DNA of 64,000 nt from Tausonia pullulans (taxonomy: Eukaryota; Basidiomycota; Tremellomycetes; Cystofilobasidiales; Mrakiaceae), in NCBI GenBank assembly GCA_951802195.1, contig OX637620.1, forward strand, positions 744,001 through 808,000. Direction: 5' to 3'. Both the position numbers and the translations under genes were made by a program. The notes beneath the pieces are model-generated. The model was not told the origin of the DNA. It was given only the letters and a program-made list of their open reading frames with translations, and searched no databases. Below are positions 5,343 through 64,000 of this stretch, one piece after another (position 1 is the stretch's first letter; each line of letters opens with the position of its first letter).

Positions 5343-7728
5343 TCGCGGGAGGGACTTGGAGGAGGAAGAAGCATTGGCTGTGTGTTGGCTTGTCTTTCGC
5401 GTACGATTTGGGATCGCTTGAGATTCGATGTTTCGTCTTATTTTGTTTGGAGCCTTTCAAACGTGGCTGATCTCTGCGGGTCTCTTTATATATCACTGCA
5501 TTGTCCGAGATCAGGATGTGGCATCGGAATCTGCCCTTTCATCGTCCCCCCCTTGCTAGGATCTCGAAAGAAGCCCTCTAATTCCCTCCCTTCGGGTCCG
5601 CTCTATGTGTTCCTCGTTTGGACGCACGGCCCAGTATCACAGTCGCATCCAGGCGCGCATGAGCATCTTCCGGTATGAGAGGACTTGTCAGCAGAGGAGA
5701 AAGCACGATCAGCCATCAGGGCCAGTACCTACCCACGGATGCAATCGGCGCAACATGGCTCGTGGGTGGGAGGATTGTCGTTGTCCTGATTGAAGGGAAG
5801 GCGGAAGGATGAGTCGCTGGGATGTAAGCGATGAGGAAAGGGAGAGGAAAGCGCACGTACGGAGGAGGACATGAGGAAAGAGGGAAGGAAGGTGGGTGTT
5901 GATGGAAAGAAGCGGAACGACTGGGTGGAGGCGACCTTGAGCAGTGCAAGCGAGGCAGGTGATTGCCGTCGTTTCACGTCGACGCTGCGCGAGAACAAGG
6001 AGTGAGGCGTCAGTGTCAGCCGGCTCTCGCCGCTTTCGGGCCGCCTGATTCTCGGAAGCAGCGGAGTGCTCGGTGAGAGAAACGATACGCGTCACATGGA
6101 GGAAATGACGCTCCACCGATAACGAGGCCGACGACGGGGCTCGTCGGCAGAAGGGGAGCTAGAGATGCTACTGAGTCGAGCCGGAGTTTTGAAGATGTAT
6201 GTCAAGGACAGGTCGAACTAAGCCATCATTTAAATGGTGAGATATGTCCTTTCATTCTGGCGAAGAACGTTAATAAGCAGGTCACGATGTAATAATAGAA
6301 CGTCATAATAATCATGCCATGTTGTTCAGCCCTCCACCAGCCCTCAAGACCTCATGATACCACTGCTTAAGCCTCCCTCCGTAAATGGTGATCTGCGCGC
6401 TGCCTCTCCGACCACTGCCTCTTGCCCTCGCTCGCTCATGTTCGCTCGTTTCTCTATCTAGCACCGACACTACCTTGACGACGTCAGGCAAGAGCAGCTG
6501 AGTAGGCTTCACGCGCACCTACATTCCACAAAAGGAATCTGTCGAAGTGAGCGGCAAGATAAGCGCGCGCAAGTCATTCATGCGGCGGACTCGCCCATCT
6601 ACATTGCAACACGACGAATGCACTGGCGGTTGCTGATCGAGTCGGGACTGGCCATGTCCGCGGTACTTCTAGTGGAAGGTAAGAGTGGGTGAGCGAATAG
6701 GCAGACAAGCGCGCAAGAAAAGACGTACAATCAGGGACATGTCGCCGGAGAAGGTAGAAGTTGGGGGTGCCCTCCTAATCTCTCCCATGGAGACAAGACC
6801 AGGGAGGGAGCGTCGGCGCTGGCATCCCTGGACGTTTGGGTTGGAGCCCTCGCAGGTGTGCGCAGTATACTCCGGCGGCCAAGTCACGAAATCTGTCAGC
6901 TCTCATTCGAGTCATCACGAGAGCGGAGCAGAGCCTCGTTCGGTGATGGAGGACCCCGACGGAGGAGCGGCGAGACAAGGGTGAGAGGGTGGAGAAGAAG
7001 GGGGAAGAGAAAGAAGACTAAAATCACACGCCGACCGTCCAAATGAGCACTACCATCCCTCCTAGACGCTCCTCAGTTCTGAGCTATCGTCGCCATTGTC
7101 ATCGCCATCACCACCGTTACCACCATTAGCATCATTCCCAGCCCCAGCGTGTAGACCTTCCCATCATTTCTTGTCCGTCGGCCGATGCGCCAAATGGTGG
7201 ATGCGACCGTTGGGATCTCGTCGTCCGTAACATTGAGCTTGCTGTACCATCGGTGACAGATAAGGCGCCAGATCCGGGCTAGGAAGATGTAATGGAACAG
7301 GACGACGTACCGCGGGGGGCGAGGGCGTTGGATACATGAGCGTCTGAAAGGTAGGGGGATCGGAGGAAGAAAGAGTGTTTTTTTTTTTTGTATTTAAGTC
7401 ATGAGTTATACGTGGAGAACGAGGTAACCCTATGAGAGATAGCGAGTTGTAGCTAGATAGAGGGAGAGCGGACATGACCGAGCGCGAAAACGTCGGGCGA
7501 GGCGCCGTGGGAAGAGGGTTGGCCGAAACACTGGGGATGGTTGGCCGGACGGCGTGATGGGCGCCGTGAGAGGGGGGGGTTGGTCGAACCACCGGGATGG
7601 TGGTTGGCCGGAAGGGGGTTGTGGCGGCGGTGCAGACAACACAGATCACAGGAGATGTGTCGTGAAAGAGATGGAAGAAGGACCAAATTGGTGAAACGTT
7701 GTGAACTTCTTTGAAGTGTCTTATTGTC
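5343..7728. other. Gene-poor stretch, possibly one unrecognised spliced gene on the minus strand
   Basis: No product could be recognised. On the minus strand there are convincing intron ends: a long pyrimidine tract then cag just before 7345, and gtacgt near 7311. There are also exon-like fragments, including a C-terminal piece at 6312-6518 (DVVKVVSVLDRETSEHERAR ... GGGLNNMA) and an acidic Gly/Asn/Asp-rich piece near 7060-7150 ending DDSSELRSV. These could not be joined into one credible protein. Many overlapping frames on both strands look like chance products of skewed composition. Confidence 0.25.
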
Positions 7729-7812
7729 TCCGAGCAACCTCGGTTCGAGTCCGGGTGCTACCTGCTTCAGCATCGGTGGCATAGTATAGATGGTTAGTAC
7801 ACTCGGTTCTGA
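7729..7812 (+). tRNA. Permuted tRNA-Gln (anticodon CUG): 3' half precedes 5' half
   Basis: The 3' half comes first. 7729 is position 38, 7730-7734 (ccgag) the 3' side of the anticodon stem, and 7735-7738 the variable loop. The T stem is ctcgg/ccggg (7739-7743, 7751-7755) around ttcgagt, then the acceptor strand tgctacc (7756-7762) and discriminator T (7763). After an 11-base spacer (7764-7774) comes the 5' half: acceptor ggtggca (7775-7781), T8, A9, D stem gtat/gtac around agatggtta with G18G19 and A21, then ctcgg (7802-7806) and ttctga (7807-7812). Acceptor strands pair 7/7 with one G-U, and anticodon stem, T stem and D stem also pair. Joined, the loop is ttctgat, anticodon CTG, with U33, R37 and U73 as in yeast tRNA-Gln. 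No other half lies nearby. Confidence 0.85.
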
Positions 7813-7823
7813 AGAGTCGTTGG

Positions 7824-7828
7824 TTTTT
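7824..7828 (+). terminator. T5 RNA polymerase III terminator after the permuted tRNA
   Basis: Five Ts begin 11 bases after the end of the 5' half. A run of four to five Ts stops Pol III, so one transcript could cover leader, 3' half, spacer, 5' half and an 11-base trailer. Confidence 0.6.
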
Positions 7829-12283: not shown

Positions 12284-15200
12284 ATGCCTCCACGTCGACG
12301 CCCCGGTGCGTCCTCTTCGGCGGGCACCTCGAACGGCAAACCCCAGACTTCGACGAGTCATAAACGGTCCCGGTTGCTCGCCGGCCGCCAAATCAACGGA
12401 GGAAGCGGCGGCAGCGGCGGAGGGAAGGGTAAGGGCAAGCAGGCCCGCCCGCCAAGCACGGTCGCGGCTGGGAGGGGCAGCATGCTAGCCGTCAGCAGTA
12501 CGTGCGAGATGTATCGATTTAGTTGTGACCCCGTGGAGAACGGCAGGGGTGTTAGCGACTAACTCTGTCGTTGCTCGATCGTAGGCGCGGCTGGTCTTCC
12601 TGGAGCTGTTGACGTCGAGAAGTTTGCCCTGGTTCGTCTTGGCCGACCTCTTCCTTTGACTAACTGCAGATATGCTGATTAGAAGTATGTTCTATAGGCA
12701 CGCTCCTTTGAGGTCGAAGCAATGAAGACGGCGATGAAGACGGCCTTGTGCGTTCTTGTCCAAAGAGACAGGCGCGTCGTCGTTGTGACCTACAGATTGA
12801 CATGCATCTCGCTTTTTCCTTCTCTTCTATCATATCGTCCTACTGGCTCCTCGACGAATAGCGATTCTTCCACCAAGCGTGCTTTCCAGACGCTCCCCCG
12901 CCACCTCCGCCGTCGCGCGGCTTCCCACAACGCACGACGCGTCCCAGGCAGACTTCGAGCAAAGGCGGCTTCCGAGGCTCGTCCTTCGCTCTTGCGATCG
13001 AGCCAGACGTCGACTGGTTGCTGAGACTCATTGATTTTATATGTGCCAGATTGATCCGAAGACGGCGCCTGAGCCGAAGCACTACCCCAAACGCAAGATC
13101 TCGATGAAGACGGGCCTCACACGTACAGCGAAGCTCCGACGAAGACAAAGTCCGTCGCCCAGACCTTATATTAGCTCTCAGCCACTGACGATGATGGTCT
13201 CCTCTTCACGTAGAGACGAAGGCCTGGTTAGAGACGCACATCTGGATGGCTAAGCGCATGCACATGATTAACATCTGGGGATTTCGCCTTGTGAGTATCA
13301 ATTGTCGAAGTACATTCCGTTCCAAGCTCATTTAGTGCTTCTCTCTCAGGCCCATCGTCCCACCGAAAAGGCTTTCCGGCCTTCTCATCGTGCAGCCATC
13401 CATGGGGCCATCCTCACAGACGTTTCATACTTCTCGCTTCTCGAGCTAGAAGGAGAGGAACCCGTCCTGGAACGCGTGCTGAGGCGCGTCTCTGCCGAGG
13501 TCTGCTGGGGCAATAGGTGCGCGGCCTCCCTGTACTCCCTCTATTTCTGGCCCATGTTGTAATACTCTGACGCATGCACATTCGCTCTTCTTGTTCATCA
13601 GGTACTCTCCAGGGTCAAGGCAGGCGACGACGACGCTCCATCTTCCTTCCGCCTACCCTCTAGGACTTCTTTGCCCTGCCACAGTCCTCTGGTGCCCCCA
13701 TCCATCCTCTCCTTCGAACTCGATCGACGCCAATTCCGCCTCTTCTTCCACTGTCCCCGAGCCTCGCCGCCAAGTCTGGATCCGCTTCCACCCCGGGTCG
13801 CACGCCGAGGTCTGGGGAGCCCTCCGTGCCTCCATCGGCGCCACACTTGAGGAAATCCGCGCCGAGCGCGCTTTCATCCCCGGCAATTGCGACACCGCTG
13901 CTCAGGGTAAAGGAAAGGGTCGAGGGGGCACTGAGCAGGAGACGACCGTCGGTCTAAGCGACATCCGACAGACGGTGAATGCGCTCGAGTTCATCGGGCC
14001 CAAGGCGGCGAGGGTGCTCAAGGGTGCTCTTGGTGGGCTCGTGAGGAGCGAGGACAGGGCGGAGATGAAGGAGATCTGGGCGAACTTCGCCGATGTCCGG
14101 ACGGCTGGAGCGCTTCCTGAGGGGATGGTGCTCGGAATGAAAATCTACGACCCTCGACTCAGGTGAGTCTGGTTCTCCCCATCGAGGCGATGAGCTCTTG
14201 CTGAGATGCTCTTTCATTCTCACTCCAAAGCTACCCTCCGACGAACCCTAAAGACGTGACTGCAACTAATTCGGGACAGACACCGGCTTGGACGCACCAG
14301 CCGAGCCCAACGCTTGCTCGGAACGAGCTATGGGACGGTGAACTGAGGCGCACGATTAATCGGAAACAATTCAAAAAGGTCGAACTCGACCAGAGGCGGC
14401 ACAAGGTGGGATCTTATTCTCGTCTCCTTGTCTCGCCGCTTCTGGATCAACCTGACATGCGCATCATTTGCTTTTCCAGCTCGGTCAGCCGGGCAAGCCT
14501 CTCCGCGCCCTCGCGCAAGATGCTCGTGTCCCGCTCATGCTCGTCCAGACCTCGCTCGCGCCTCCCGACGGGTCACCCTCGTCGTCCCAATATGCCCAGC
14601 ACGGTTTCACCCTCTTTCTCCCCGCAGGCTGGGCCCAGGCGTTCCTTTCCTCGCTTGTCTTCACGGGTACCCGCGTTGGTGGCCTCCGAGAGCGGCAAGC
14701 CAGGGCGTTCGAGAGTGGGGCCGGGTCGTTCCCGGAAGATTGGGCAGGGACACGGGCGAGTGGTCGATGGTGGGATGAGCAGGAGCAGGGGCGGAAGGAG
14801 CGATGGGCAAGGAAGCCGCCGGCAAAGAGGCCGCAGTGGATGAGCCTGGGTTGGGCGGAAGAGGGATCGGGACAGCCTGGGAACAGTCCATGGAAGCCTG
14901 ACTGGGAGACGCTTGTTCGTCGGACATTGGTTGACGATGAGGAGGCGGTGGCCCTCAACGAGGACACGCCGGAACCTTGGCTACTTCGTCTTCCTGGAGG
15001 ACTTGCTGGCCTCCTCCCCCGGCTACTCCTCGCGTCGTTCACCGACGATACCGGCGCATCGGTTGTCTTTACTCTTCTCGAAACGCTCAACGTCCTTCGG
15101 AAGCGCCGCAACCTTTCGCCCTTGGCCTTCGGTGATGGACGCCGACTTCTCGCCGGAGCGCTCGTACGCGTGAGTGTTGAGATGCTCGGTAGAGGCGTTG

Positions 15201-15685
15201 CAGGCGAGGTTGGACCAATCTACGTCTTAGATGGCGAGGGAGAGGGAGAGGAGGAGGTCAGGTGGAGGGAGGCGTTTGCAGGAGGGAAAAACGGGCGGGA
15301 CATGGACCACGACGAGGAGGTGAGCAGACTTGCTCTCTGTCTCTCCTTGCTTCTCTGACTGACGTCTCTCTTCTCTCCGGACTCTTGCTTTCAGGCCGAG
15401 TCAGCCTATATCCCTCCCCCTTCATCTATTGTCGGCTACCAAACCTCAGGAGCCTTCTCTCTCGCCCGCGGACGCGGACACGGCATCGGTGCCGTATGCC
15501 TAACGACTCTCCTCACGCTCATGCAGAAGGACTTCAAAGCAGGCCGGCTCCGACCGGTCGTCGGTCGTGGTCAGGGAGGAGAGACAACATATACCTCGGT
15601 AGACGGAGAACTGCTCAACCTCGTCAAGGTCCGGGCACGGGAGAGTCGAGTGCCGAGGGCGGCGGTGCTACGTGTCTTGGATTGA
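12284..15685 (+). CDS. pop1: RNase P / RNase MRP protein subunit Pop1
   Basis: Largest protein of nuclear RNase P (tRNA 5' end cutting) and RNase MRP (rRNA processing). The ATG at 12284 gives MPPRRRPGASSSAGTSNGKP and a basic Gly-rich start. Next come LPGAVDVEKFALARSFEVEA and the POP1 signature KRAFQTLPRHLRRRAASHNA, RRVPGRLRAKAA. Then follow ETKAWLETHIWMAKRMHMIN and IWGFRLAHRPTEKAFRPSHR, HGAILTDVSYFSLLELEG. The POPLD region includes FTLFLPAGWAQAFLSSLVFTG and later SARPW-type segments. The end is VKVRARESRVPRAAVLRVLD, as in other Pop1 C-termini. About nine introns. Pop1's enzyme would be expected to cut the 5' side of the permuted tRNA at 7729-7812; that link is inference. Confidence 0.93.
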
Positions 15686-45244: not shown

Positions 45245-45504
45245 GCTGTCGGCGAGCGGCGAGCGGGGCGAAATCTTGGATGATCTCCTGGGGTTGATGG
45301 TGACGAGGCTGGCGCGAAGGTAGTGGATGTTGACGGTTGGGCGAGCGAGCGGGCGGGGTTGGCTTCCTCCAAGAGTGAGCGAGCCCGCAGAGGGAAACGG
45401 TCCGGCCGTCCTTGCCCTCCCTCCACCAACGCGACAAAGAATCATGGCGACGACGACGACCACCACCACCGCCATCCCAACGAGTCATCCTGGCTCTCCC
45501 CAGC
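45245..45504. promoter_or_regulatory. Shared divergent promoter of CENP-C and slm3
   Basis: 260 bases between start codons; contains purine-rich and pyrimidine-rich halves. No known element recognised. Confidence 0.45.
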
Positions 45505-47455
45505 ATGCACCTCGCCCCAGGAGTCCGATCGCTTGCGGCCCTCCAATGGCTCCGGGGCGCGACGAAAGTCTTTTCCTCCTACGGCTTTCACCCCGGGGCG
45601 CCGGCCTTGACAGGTCGCCGGCGATTCAGCTCTCATGCGTCTGGTGGCCGGCTAGACTCTCCGTTGTACCCTCTCGATTCCCGACTCAAACCAGGAGACG
45701 AAGGTGGGAGAGCCCTATAACATCCTACCGGAGCTGGTCACAGCGCTTAGCGGCTGACTTCTCTGCTCCACTCCACCCTGTCTATCGCCGTCCCTCCTTG
45801 TCCTCATCAGTTGTCATGGCCATGTCCGGTGGCGTTGACTCGTCGGTCTCGCTTCGTCTTCTTGCTCAGCATGTCAGTGCCCCTTCTCCTTCTCCTCCCT
45901 GCTCCCACCTTTTGCTGACGGACGAGGGCGCACTTCATCCCTCCTGTGACAGGATCTCTCCCTGTCCGCGGTTTTCATGCGCAACTGGTCTCAAGAAGCG
46001 TCAGATTCTCTGCAAGGCTGCGAGTGGGAGAAGGATTGGGAGGACGTCCAGCGGGTCTGCAGGATGCTCGATGTGCCATATCGAATGGCGCGTCCCTATC
46101 TTGTGCACCCGTTTGGGTTGCTTTCTTTCTGACATGCGCTCAATCGTTCAGATCGACCTCTCTCGGGAGTACTGGCTACGGGTGTTTGAACCTGCCATCA
46201 GTGATTGGGCTGGGGGTGTCACGCCAAATCCAGACATCTCGTGCAACAGGTGAAAGGTGGAGTCTGTGCTTCAGATGGCATATTCTGGCTGAACCCTTCC
46301 TTCGCCAACAGGGAGATCAAGTTTGGCGCCCTCATGGACAAGGCCATGACAAGCCCCTCCGCATATCTTGCTACGGGTGAGTACCTCCGCTTTCTTCCCA
46401 AAGGTACCCAACAGCTTTGACTGTTGTGCTTCTACCTCCAGGTCACTACGCGCAGCTTCAGCAAACCCCCGCCGGCCGAATTCAGCTGCACTCCTCCCCA
46501 GACAAGATCAAAGACCAGTCGTACTTCCTTTCTTCGGTCTCAGAAATCCAGCTCGAAAAGGTCCTTCAGCAGCATCCTTCGCCCCGCGTCCTCCAACGGC
46601 AGACTGACCTCGCCTTTCCCCTTGTTCAGTCGCTGTTCCCGATCGGCCATCTCGAGAAAGCCACCGTCAAGGTTCTCGCTCATCAGTTCGGCCTTCCAAC
46701 AGCCTCTCGCAAAGAGTCAATGGGAATTTGCTTTATCGAGAATAAGCAGCGCGAAAGCTTCTCCGATTTTCTTTGTGAGTTGGTGGTCTCCATCTCTACT
46801 GCTTTTCGCCCACTCGTCATCTAAAAAGGCGCGTGCAAGAGTAGCCGAATACATCCCTCCCCAGCCAGGCAAGATCATCACTGAAGCGGGCGTCGTCGTC
46901 GGCGATCACCAGGGTCTATGGACGATGACGGAGGGCGAGCGGTGGCGCGTCGGCGGCTTGAAGAACCGTTGGTACGTCGCTCGAAGGGACCAAGAGCGGA
47001 ATGAGATTGTTGTCGTCGAGGGAGCGTAAGTACGGACTCCTTGTTTGTACTGTCGCACCACGCACGGCGAACTGATCGTGAGGTGCACCTTGTTAGAGAC
47101 CACCCGAGCCTTGTCGTCCAGTCCTTCACGGCGAGCGGCTGGAACTGGGTCTGGCCAGAGCACCCTCCTCCCGATGAACTCAACACAGCAGAGGGCCTCA
47201 AAGTTGAGATCAAGACGATGTCGTCCGTACCCAAGATGCCGGCGGCGATCCGGCGAGGGTGCGTCGTCGAACCAGCGACACTTTGATTATCTGCTAACAG
47301 CCTTTCTCAAACTACTCAGAGCTCGCCCTGAAGAGTATCAGGTGGAGTTTGAGGGCGAGGCGAGGCTCCCAGTCACGCCTGGGCAAGCGGTCGTTGCATG
47401 GAAGGGATCGTGGTGCCTGGGCGGCGGTGTGATCCAGCGGCGCTCGCCGGTATAA
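45505..47455 (+). CDS. Mitochondrial tRNA 2-thiouridylase (Slm3/Mtu1, MnmA family)
   Basis: Puts sulphur on U34 of mitochondrial tRNAs for Lys, Glu and Gln. Start MHLAPGVRSLAALQWLRGAT gives a mitochondrial-type leader. An intron with donor gtggga and acceptor cctcatcag joins RLKPGDE to VVMAMSGGVDSSVSLRLL, giving the PP-loop SGGVDSS in frame. Next come DLSLSAVFMRNW, WEKDWEDVQRVCRMLDVPYR, IDLSREYWLRVFEPAISDWA, GVTPNPDISCNREIKFGAL with the first catalytic Cys, YLATGHYAQLQQTPAGRIQL, KIKDQSYFLSSVSE, FPIGHLEKATVKVLAHQFGL, and SRKESMGICFIENKQRESFS with the second Cys. The end domain has YIPPQPGKIITEAGVVVGDH and a beta-barrel-like tail ending VIQRRSPV. The alternative unspliced ATG at 45444 keeps the frame but lacks a credible leader. 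Confidence 0.92.
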
Positions 47456-62412: not shown

Positions 62413-64000
62413 ATGCTTCCTCTCCGCGCCGTCGCTCGCGGTCCGGCCGCCGCCTTCCTTGGTCGGTCGGTCGCCTCCATCCGATGCGCGTCGTCGGGCT
62501 CGCTCGACAAGAGCCGATTCATCCACCCGGACCAGCCTGCATCGGCCTTCCCGCTCGGCTACCAGTGCGCGGCGACCCACTGCGGTGTGAAGAAGACGAC
62601 GGCCCTCGACCTGGGTCTCCTCGTTTCCGAGTCGGCCCAGACGAGTGCCGCCGCAACGTTCACGCGCAATGTCTTCCAGGCCGCGCCTGTCCATGTCTCT
62701 CGGGAGGTCCTCCTCGGTCAGCACGGACGTGCCAGGGCGCTCGTCGTCAACTCAGGCTGCGCCAACGCCGTCACAGGCAAACAAGGCATGACCGATGCCC
62801 GTGCGATGGTTGGGACCGTCGATGAGCTCGTCGCGTCGACCGCTCCCACGACGCTTGTCCTCTCGACGGGTGTCATTGGCCAGACACTCCCAATGGACGC
62901 CATTCTCCCCTCGATCCCCAAGATCCACTCAGCGCTGTCTGCGGACCCTCAGGCGTGGGTTGACCTTTCGCGGGCGTTCATGACGACCGACACGTTCCCC
63001 AAACTGCGGACCAAGACCATCACCCTCGGCGGCGTCCCTGTCCGGTTTGCCGGTATTGACAAGGGAGCCGGCATGATTCACCCTTCAATGGGTCCTCCCA
63101 AGCCCGTTCAGCCCATGCATGGAACGCTCCTCGGAGTCATCGCCACGGACGCCGCCATCGCGCCCGAGGCGCTCCAGGCGGCACTCACCTACGCCGTCGA
63201 CCGGAGCTTCAACGCCATCACCGTCGACGGCGACATGAGCACCAACGACACCGTCGTCGCCTTTGCCAATGGTGCGAGCGGCATGGAGCGCGAACTTGTC
63301 GAGACGGACAAGGAGTGGGTGCATTTCAGGGACGAGCTCACGTCGTTCGCAGAGGACCTCGCCAAGCTCGTCGTCCGGGACGGCGAAGGCGCGACTAAGT
63401 TTGTGACGGTCAACGTCAAGGTGAGAGCAAGCCGATAGGACAAATAAGATGAGGCTTCGCTCACTGATGGTTGTTTCTCCGCCCAGGGTGCTCCGTCTTA
63501 CGAGGCGGCCAAGACTATCGCTTCGACGATCGCCACCTCCTCCCTCGTCAAGACTGCGCTCTACGGCCAGGACGCCAACTGGGGTCGCATCCTTTGCGCC
63601 ATGTACGAAGTGCTCCTTCCCACCTGCCTATCTCGCTCCGACTGACCCGTTCCCTCTGTCTTTTTCAGTGGCTACTCCGCCCTCCCTGAAGGCACCCTCG
63701 ACCCAACTAAGACCCGCGTCTCCTTCGTCCCTACAGACGGCACGCCCGAGCTCCTCCTTCTCGACCAGGGCGAGCCCGTCCCTTTCTCCGAGGAGGAAGC
63801 CGCCCGGATCCTCGCGCTCGAGGACCTTGAGATCTCGGTCCACCTTGGGGCCGGTGAGGAGGCCGCCAAATACTACACGTGTGATTTCAGCCATGTGAGT
63901 GTTTCCAAAAGTGGGCCGAGTAATAATGGTATGCCAGATTACTGATACATATGCGCACTTGCAGGAGTACGTGACGATCAACGGCGACTACCGGTCGTAG
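62413..64000 (+). CDS. Mitochondrial ornithine acetyltransferase / N-acetylglutamate synthase (ArgJ, Arg7)
   Basis: Bifunctional enzyme recycling the acetyl group in arginine synthesis. The first exon (62413-63420) begins [20 protein letters not shown], an import leader. Then [98 protein letters not shown] and [20 protein letters not shown]. The self-cleavage site is [11 protein letters not shown], with Thr as the nucleophile. Next [20 protein letters not shown]. Exon 2 starts at 63487 with [20 protein letters not shown], then [20 protein letters not shown] across an intron, and the end [12 protein letters not shown]. Three introns only, few for this window. The stop is the last base of the window, so the gene is complete. 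Confidence 0.96.

Follow-up and report, generated by a model that had tools for sequence, protein, structure and literature searches.

Can a tRNA gene whose 3′ half lies upstream of its 5′ half be a working gene in a fungal chromosome? The question is raised by a locus at positions 7729–7812 (+) of a 64,000-nucleotide (nt) stretch of chromosome 1 of the Tremellomycete yeast Tausonia pullulans (Basidiomycota, Cystofilobasidiales; contig C1:744001–808000; hereafter the window). An earlier note, made from the letters of the window, had read this locus as a circularly permuted tRNA-Gln(CUG) gene in a fungal chromosome. The host is indeed a fungus, and the reading is supported, although the note underestimated its scale: we found 21 permuted genes for tRNA-Gln(CUG), 14 for initiator tRNA-Met and one for tRNA-Thr(UGU). 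Permuted tRNA genes are thus real and multi-copy in this organism, and their sequence features suggest that they are very probably functional. We consider it highly likely that the window locus is a working permuted gene, one of 21 that would supply tRNA-Gln(CUG) in T. pullulans.

Direct reading of the sequence confirms the note's placement of the 3′ half at 7729–7763 and of the 5′ half at 7775–7812. These are tRNA positions 38–73 and 1–37, with the junction between bases 37 and 38. All features of the locus lie on the plus strand. The 3′ half opens with TCCGAG, as do the whole units with which it was compared, and contains the B box (GGTTCGAGTCC; 7742–7752), the 3′ acceptor strand (7756–7762) and the discriminator U73 (7763). 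The B box is labeled according to the definition in a 2014 review (PMC3978253). An intervening sequence of 11 nt (7764–7774) separates the two ends of the acceptor stem. The 5′ half begins with the 5′ acceptor strand (7775–7781), continues with an A box-like D-arm sequence (TAGTATAGATGG; 7782–7793), which here lies downstream of the B box, and ends with the anticodon CTG (7809–7811) and base 37. A further stretch (7813–7823) leads to TTTTT at 7824–7828, a probable RNA polymerase III (Pol III) terminator. When rejoined, the two halves form the complete cloverleaf that the note had claimed, comprising 7/7 acceptor pairs (one G-U), 4/4 D-stem pairs (one U-G), 5/5 anticodon-stem pairs and 5/5 T-stem pairs, together with U8, A14, G18G19, A21, U33, C34U35G36, T54T55C56, A58 and U73.

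Standard tools did not reveal this gene, as neither ARAGORN in linear mode nor Rfam at its gathering score reported a tRNA in the window. We therefore turned to a covariance model of rotated tRNAs (R1), built from the three Gln forms plus 15 conventional tRNAs from the same genome, each rotated at 37/38; it includes no Leu or Ser tRNAs, and its Thr row is the AGU isoacceptor. R1 detected both halves of the window locus with 61.8 bits (expectation value E 2.2e-19), and the sole other match in the window scored 7.5 bits. Because R1 contains this Gln tRNA form, the score of the window locus is helped by construction. ARAGORN run in circular mode with introns on the excised locus (L009) joined the halves round its ends into a tRNA-Gln(CTG), and it did the same in other Gln loci. 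With up to 3 mismatches allowed, the 64 kb contain a single T-arm motif and a single D-arm motif; there is thus no second half in the vicinity, as the note had stated.

We then searched the whole genome (23.86 Mb in 21 contigs, numbered here with the prefix C). With the 84-nt window unit as query, 23 matches were obtained, of which 19 are whole units and the remaining four make up two pairs of halves, both on C16. The resulting 21 loci are distributed over C1 (1), C11 (3), C12 (3), C14 (1), C16 (2), C17 (2) and C18 (9), and in every one of them the 3′ half comes first, followed by the linker and then the 5′ half. The linker measures 4–46 nt among 20 distinct units. Across the family, conservation of the tRNA body reaches the junction on either side, through base 37 in the 5′ half and starting at base 38 in the 3′ half, while flanks and linkers vary; the matched part of the 5′ half is 97–100% identical across the 21 loci. 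The acceptor stem occurs in three versions that differ by compensated changes. Both-sided changes that keep pairing are seen at 3:70, 4:69, 6:67 and 7:66 (4 of the 7 pairs, from three distinct rows), and no compensated acceptor pair was left when the partner column was slid by 1–3 positions as a control. Within each unit, the acceptor versions of the two halves agree. The compensated changes indicate that the two halves of a unit co-vary and would evolve as one molecule.

The note had also proposed looking for a conventional tRNA-Gln(CUG) gene, and none was found by BLAST-type and pattern searches of the genome, tests that could miss a gene that has diverged or carries an intron. Searching with the rejoined 73-nt tRNA returned 31 matches (E up to 10), each of which is a half within the permuted loci: 21 match the 5′ half, one in each locus, and the other 10 match the 3′ half in these same loci. 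One of these half matches extends two bases past the 5′ half. A pattern for the joined Gln anticodon arm gave 81 matches in the genome at up to 3 mismatches, none of which had 0 or 1 mismatch; in the 20 of these 81 loci that were examined, no tRNA-Gln was called by ARAGORN or by a second covariance model of the joined Gln tRNA (R2; best score 13.9 bits). R2 likewise found no conventional Gln gene in 34 of the retrieved sources, where its best matches were halves of permuted units and conventional tRNAs otherwise called (as Val by ARAGORN, or intron-bearing and read as His). Two genome patterns for tRNA-Gln(UUG), which is needed for CAA codons, gave no match, nor did a yeast DNA query, an uninformative test; this tRNA may be permuted, intron-bearing or diverged. 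Exact patterns had no matches in viral contigs or in prokaryote genomes.

A permutation-aware search of the kind the note had suggested extended the finding beyond Gln. R1 was run on the window and on 97 retrieved loci (283 kb counting overlaps, ~1.2% of 23.9 Mb), where it recovered the window locus and two further kinds of permuted tRNA. Over 43 of these loci (126 kb, many overlapping) and at E up to 1, it returned 145 matches, of which 25 scored at least 47 bits and the other 120 at most 26.5. Two of the 25 high-scoring rows were tRNAs absent from the model. One, with a 53-nt linker, is a tRNA-Thr(UGU) at C2:1549210–1549338 (L057:3839–3711, minus strand in L057); the other, whose linker measures 5 nt, is an initiator tRNA-Met at C6:345176–345252 (L072:2640–2716, plus strand in L072). 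Permuted genes of these two kinds score 47–54 bits, and half matches of conventional tRNAs reach at most 28.2 bits, the best of them in the mitochondrial contig. In the remaining fetched loci (E up to 1e-4, 1e-6 or 1e-3, depending on the set), R1 found no further kind of permuted tRNA. In genome searches, the initiator unit matched at 14 places, with the whole permuted unit covered at every one, and the Thr unit at one. The total is therefore 36 permuted genes on 12 of the 21 contigs; since R1 covered ~1.2% of the genome, this number is a lower bound, and other permuted isotypes may exist.

All 14 initiator loci (13 fetched loci and L072) are in permuted order, with linkers of 5–8 nt. By alignment, the rejoined initiator and Thr tRNAs both form complete cloverleaves, the Thr alignment marking two columns of one pair as non-standard; one initiator copy (L083) carries a compensated change in the T stem. 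The permuted Met tRNA has a GGG:CCC anticodon stem, which we take to be an initiator mark. It also carries A54, an initiator feature according to PMC3978253. No conventional initiator tRNA-Met was found in the genome by the BLAST-type and pattern searches. The 13-base core expected of a conventional copy of the initiator halves, GGGCYCATAACCC, presumably the usual initiator anticodon arm in fungi, plants and animals, has no occurrence in the genome; the same core read backwards, used as a control, also has none. The initiator in L072 and the other initiator loci begins with U1:A72; a typical eukaryotic initiator has A1:U72.

To characterize signals for transcription, loci with identical flanks were merged into 33 distinct units (19 Gln, 13 initiator and 1 Thr). 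In all 33, a run of at least four T lies within 40 nt after the 5′ half, and no such run occurs inside any unit; among 40-nt pieces drawn at random from the window, 6% contain one. TATA is present at −51 to −60 in 10 of the 13 initiator units, compared with TATA in 5% of random 70-nt stretches; this suggests that TATA drives most of the initiator genes. The pattern does not extend to the Gln genes: TATA is found in 3 of the 19 Gln units, in two of them at −7, and not in the Thr unit.

The genome also encodes candidates for the machinery that such genes would require. A fungal tRNA ligase is represented on C6 by its ligase domain (PF09511) together with its kinase and phosphodiesterase domains, and the initiator unit of L072 lies ~0.4 kb beyond this gene. 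Endonuclease subunits were matched in the PDB (Sen34, E 2e-15; Sen2, E 6e-7), and the Sen34 piece scored 25.9 bits in one profile search and 27.5 in another, around the Pfam cut-off of 27. For several conventional genes, among them Gly(GCC), Lys(CUU) and Asp, ARAGORN run with introns predicts an intron adjoining the anticodon, which suggests that splicing near 37/38 is probably in use.

Pairing between the leader and the anticodon loop gives mixed evidence for a splice-endonuclease motif of the BHB or anticodon–intron (A-I) pair type at the junction. Of 26 distinct leaders, 19 allow base −3, at the place of the A-I pair, to pair with base 32: 11/11 initiator leaders (always C-G), 1/1 Thr and 7/14 Gln. 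A full 4-bp leader helix is possible in 3 of the 26, all of them Gln. Among eight registers compared for the Gln leaders, this one pairs best (37 of 56 cells; 15–32 for the others), whereas another register pairs more in the initiator leaders (24 versus 20 of 44) and likewise in Thr (4 versus 1 of 4). The window copy is among the weak leaders. Its leader (7717–7728, +), the end of the intron-like upstream flank, pairs at 32 and 35 only, with G at −3 potentially forming a wobble pair with U32 at the A-I place.

We propose that a single Pol III transcript would run from the leader through the 3′ half, the linker and the 5′ half into the trailer and end at the T run. The transcript would fold such that the linker closes the acceptor stem and the anticodon stem closes the whole. 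The tRNA splicing endonuclease (Sen2/Sen34) would then cut at 37 and 38, and tRNA ligase would join 37 to 38, producing a circle. RNase P and tRNase Z would excise the linker and open the circle at the acceptor end, after which CCA would be added. The same pathway has been described for algae (PMC3978253). Initiator tRNA-Met would be made by the same route, and as no other source of it was found, the circular route is probably essential.

Energy folding adds a caveat to this proposal. For the window precursor, the energy minimum is not the cloverleaf, and alternative folds lie 1.4 to 4.6 kcal/mol below it, because CTCGG/CCGAG is common to the anticodon and T stems. The rejoined window tRNA also has a minimum (−27.6 kcal/mol) that is not the cloverleaf, with a z-score of −2.6 relative to mononucleotide shuffles, and folding misses the cloverleaf in many other permuted copies as well.

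Several other explanations were weighed against that of a working permuted gene. The units could be dead, as relics of a tandem tRNA duplication or of a tRNA-derived repeat, with missed conventional genes doing the work. Such an origin would fit their high copy number and the near-identical flanks of several inverted pairs, and the BLAST-type and pattern searches could have missed conventional genes that are diverged or carry introns. Dead units would however not be expected to show compensated acceptor changes, tRNA bodies conserved beside variable flanks, T runs in every distinct unit and TATA in most initiator units, nor would the conventional Gln(CUG) and initiator genes be missing from the search results; this explanation has little chance of being correct. 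We regard it as highly improbable that the halves mature in trans from separate transcripts, as in split tRNAs. A 37/38 junction is common to many split tRNAs, yet the halves here lie 4–53 nt apart on the same strand with no run of four T between them, and their acceptor versions match within units. A split tRNA gene in the strict sense, which needs halves in separate transcription units, was rejected for this spacing and the lack of an intervening terminator.

A different pairing of the halves is also conceivable, in which the 5′ half of one unit combines with the 3′ half of the next to give an ordinary tRNA with a long intron. ARAGORN with introns makes such calls on C18, with introns of 763 and 1,125 nt. 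Each half is nevertheless single in the window, the T run after the 5′ half is found in all distinct units, and isolated units exist, for example on C1, C2, C9 and C12, which makes this pairing extremely improbable. For the window locus, a conventional or intron-containing gene was rejected, as it needs the 5′ half upstream of the 3′ half and the order is reversed. The note had named an assembly error as a possible refutation, and the oddity of the arrangement is all that speaks for an artefact of assembly or mapping. With 36 loci spread over 12 contigs of an assembly (gfTauPull1.1) sequenced to 458-fold HiFi coverage with a quality value (QV) of 71.1 (PMC11803393), its probability is practically negligible. 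The working permuted gene remains our preferred explanation.

The architecture is that of known type II permuted tRNA genes. The 2014 review tabulates 34 permuted tRNA genes in seven organisms, including Gln(CTG) and initiator Met in Cyanidioschyzon merolae, with intervening sequences of 1–74 nt (PMC3978253). Type II (37/38) genes of C. merolae, Ostreococcus, Micromonas and the Bigelowiella nucleomorph resemble those of T. pullulans in the order of the halves, the 37/38 junction, the short linker, the downstream T run and, in part, the upstream TATA; as in T. pullulans, Gln(CTG) is type II permuted in C. merolae and initiator Met in both Micromonas (PMC3978253). T. pullulans differs from these algae in being a fungus with no intron seen inside the halves, and its families of 21 and 14 loci contrast with at most two genes per tRNA in that table. 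The archaeon Thermofilum pendens likewise has a permuted initiator tRNA-Met and permuted genes that are the sole source of their anticodons, but its junction is at 59/60 and CCA is encoded (PMC3978253). In the green alga Auxenochlorella, permuted genes were detected after tRNAscan-SE had given an incomplete set (PMC12633428). Among the open-access papers listed in literature searches, no title or abstract opening concerned a permuted fungal tRNA; most subscription journals lie outside that scope. As far as searched, the lineage, the copy number and the initiator family are new.

The genomic setting provides some further observations. Within the window, ArgJ (62413–63438) falls in a nine-row group with Phaffia, which belongs to Cystofilobasidiales, and Mrakia (support 100/98; the tree has 26 rows, of which 25 were selected from the 120 listed hits). 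The window contains further RNA-processing genes: one with a POPLD domain, known from the RNase P subunit Pop1, lies ~6.7 kb from the tRNA (14468–15358, +), and a tRNA 2-thiouridylase-like gene (Pfam tRNA_Me_trans) is found at 45327–47029 (+). A COX1 search pointed to basidiomycetes and no finer; the top COX1 match is an 856-amino-acid protein with a partial and a complete COX1 in tandem. Permuted tRNA genes occur in inverted pairs at C6:375298/383989, C3:560189/570578, C14:217890/229662 and C16:558035/563536, as do conventional tRNA genes at C6:687292/709370. The members of these pairs are ~5–22 kb apart, with identical or near-identical flanks in several (C6, C14, C16), an arrangement that would fit the edges of palindromic or centromere-like regions. 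The assembly, with a mitochondrial genome of 18.82 kb, has a BUSCO completeness of 29.9% (66.4% missing) despite its QV and a k-mer completeness of 100% (PMC11803393); such a low value is odd for a complete assembly and could reflect unusual gene structure.

These observations can be combined in one joint reading, which we offer tentatively. In it, all cytosolic translation of T. pullulans would start with an initiator made only via a circular RNA, the habit would be old and wide in Cystofilobasidiales, and essential tRNA genes would have been permuted and multiplied, with at least the initiator genes read from an upstream TATA and not from ordered A and B boxes. Its order-wide part rests on one published count, the 49 tRNAs with 12 anticodon species obtained for Phaffia rhodozyma with tRNAscan-SE 1.23 (PMC5103461); were it true, the same blind spot would partly explain those 12 species. 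Counts of 130 and 119 tRNAs in Mrakia (PMC12749792) neither support nor exclude it.

The permuted tRNA genes described so far come from small algae, from nucleomorphs and from a few archaea, and T. pullulans adds the fungi, with at least 36 genes. Routine fungal tRNA annotation can miss essential tRNAs, linear ARAGORN and Rfam being blind to the window locus. T. pullulans may serve as an organism for testing how genes with reversed A and B boxes are transcribed, how circles form and how permutation arose. Its multi-copy families, one of them the sole initiator source that the searches returned, suggest that permutation can carry an essential load.
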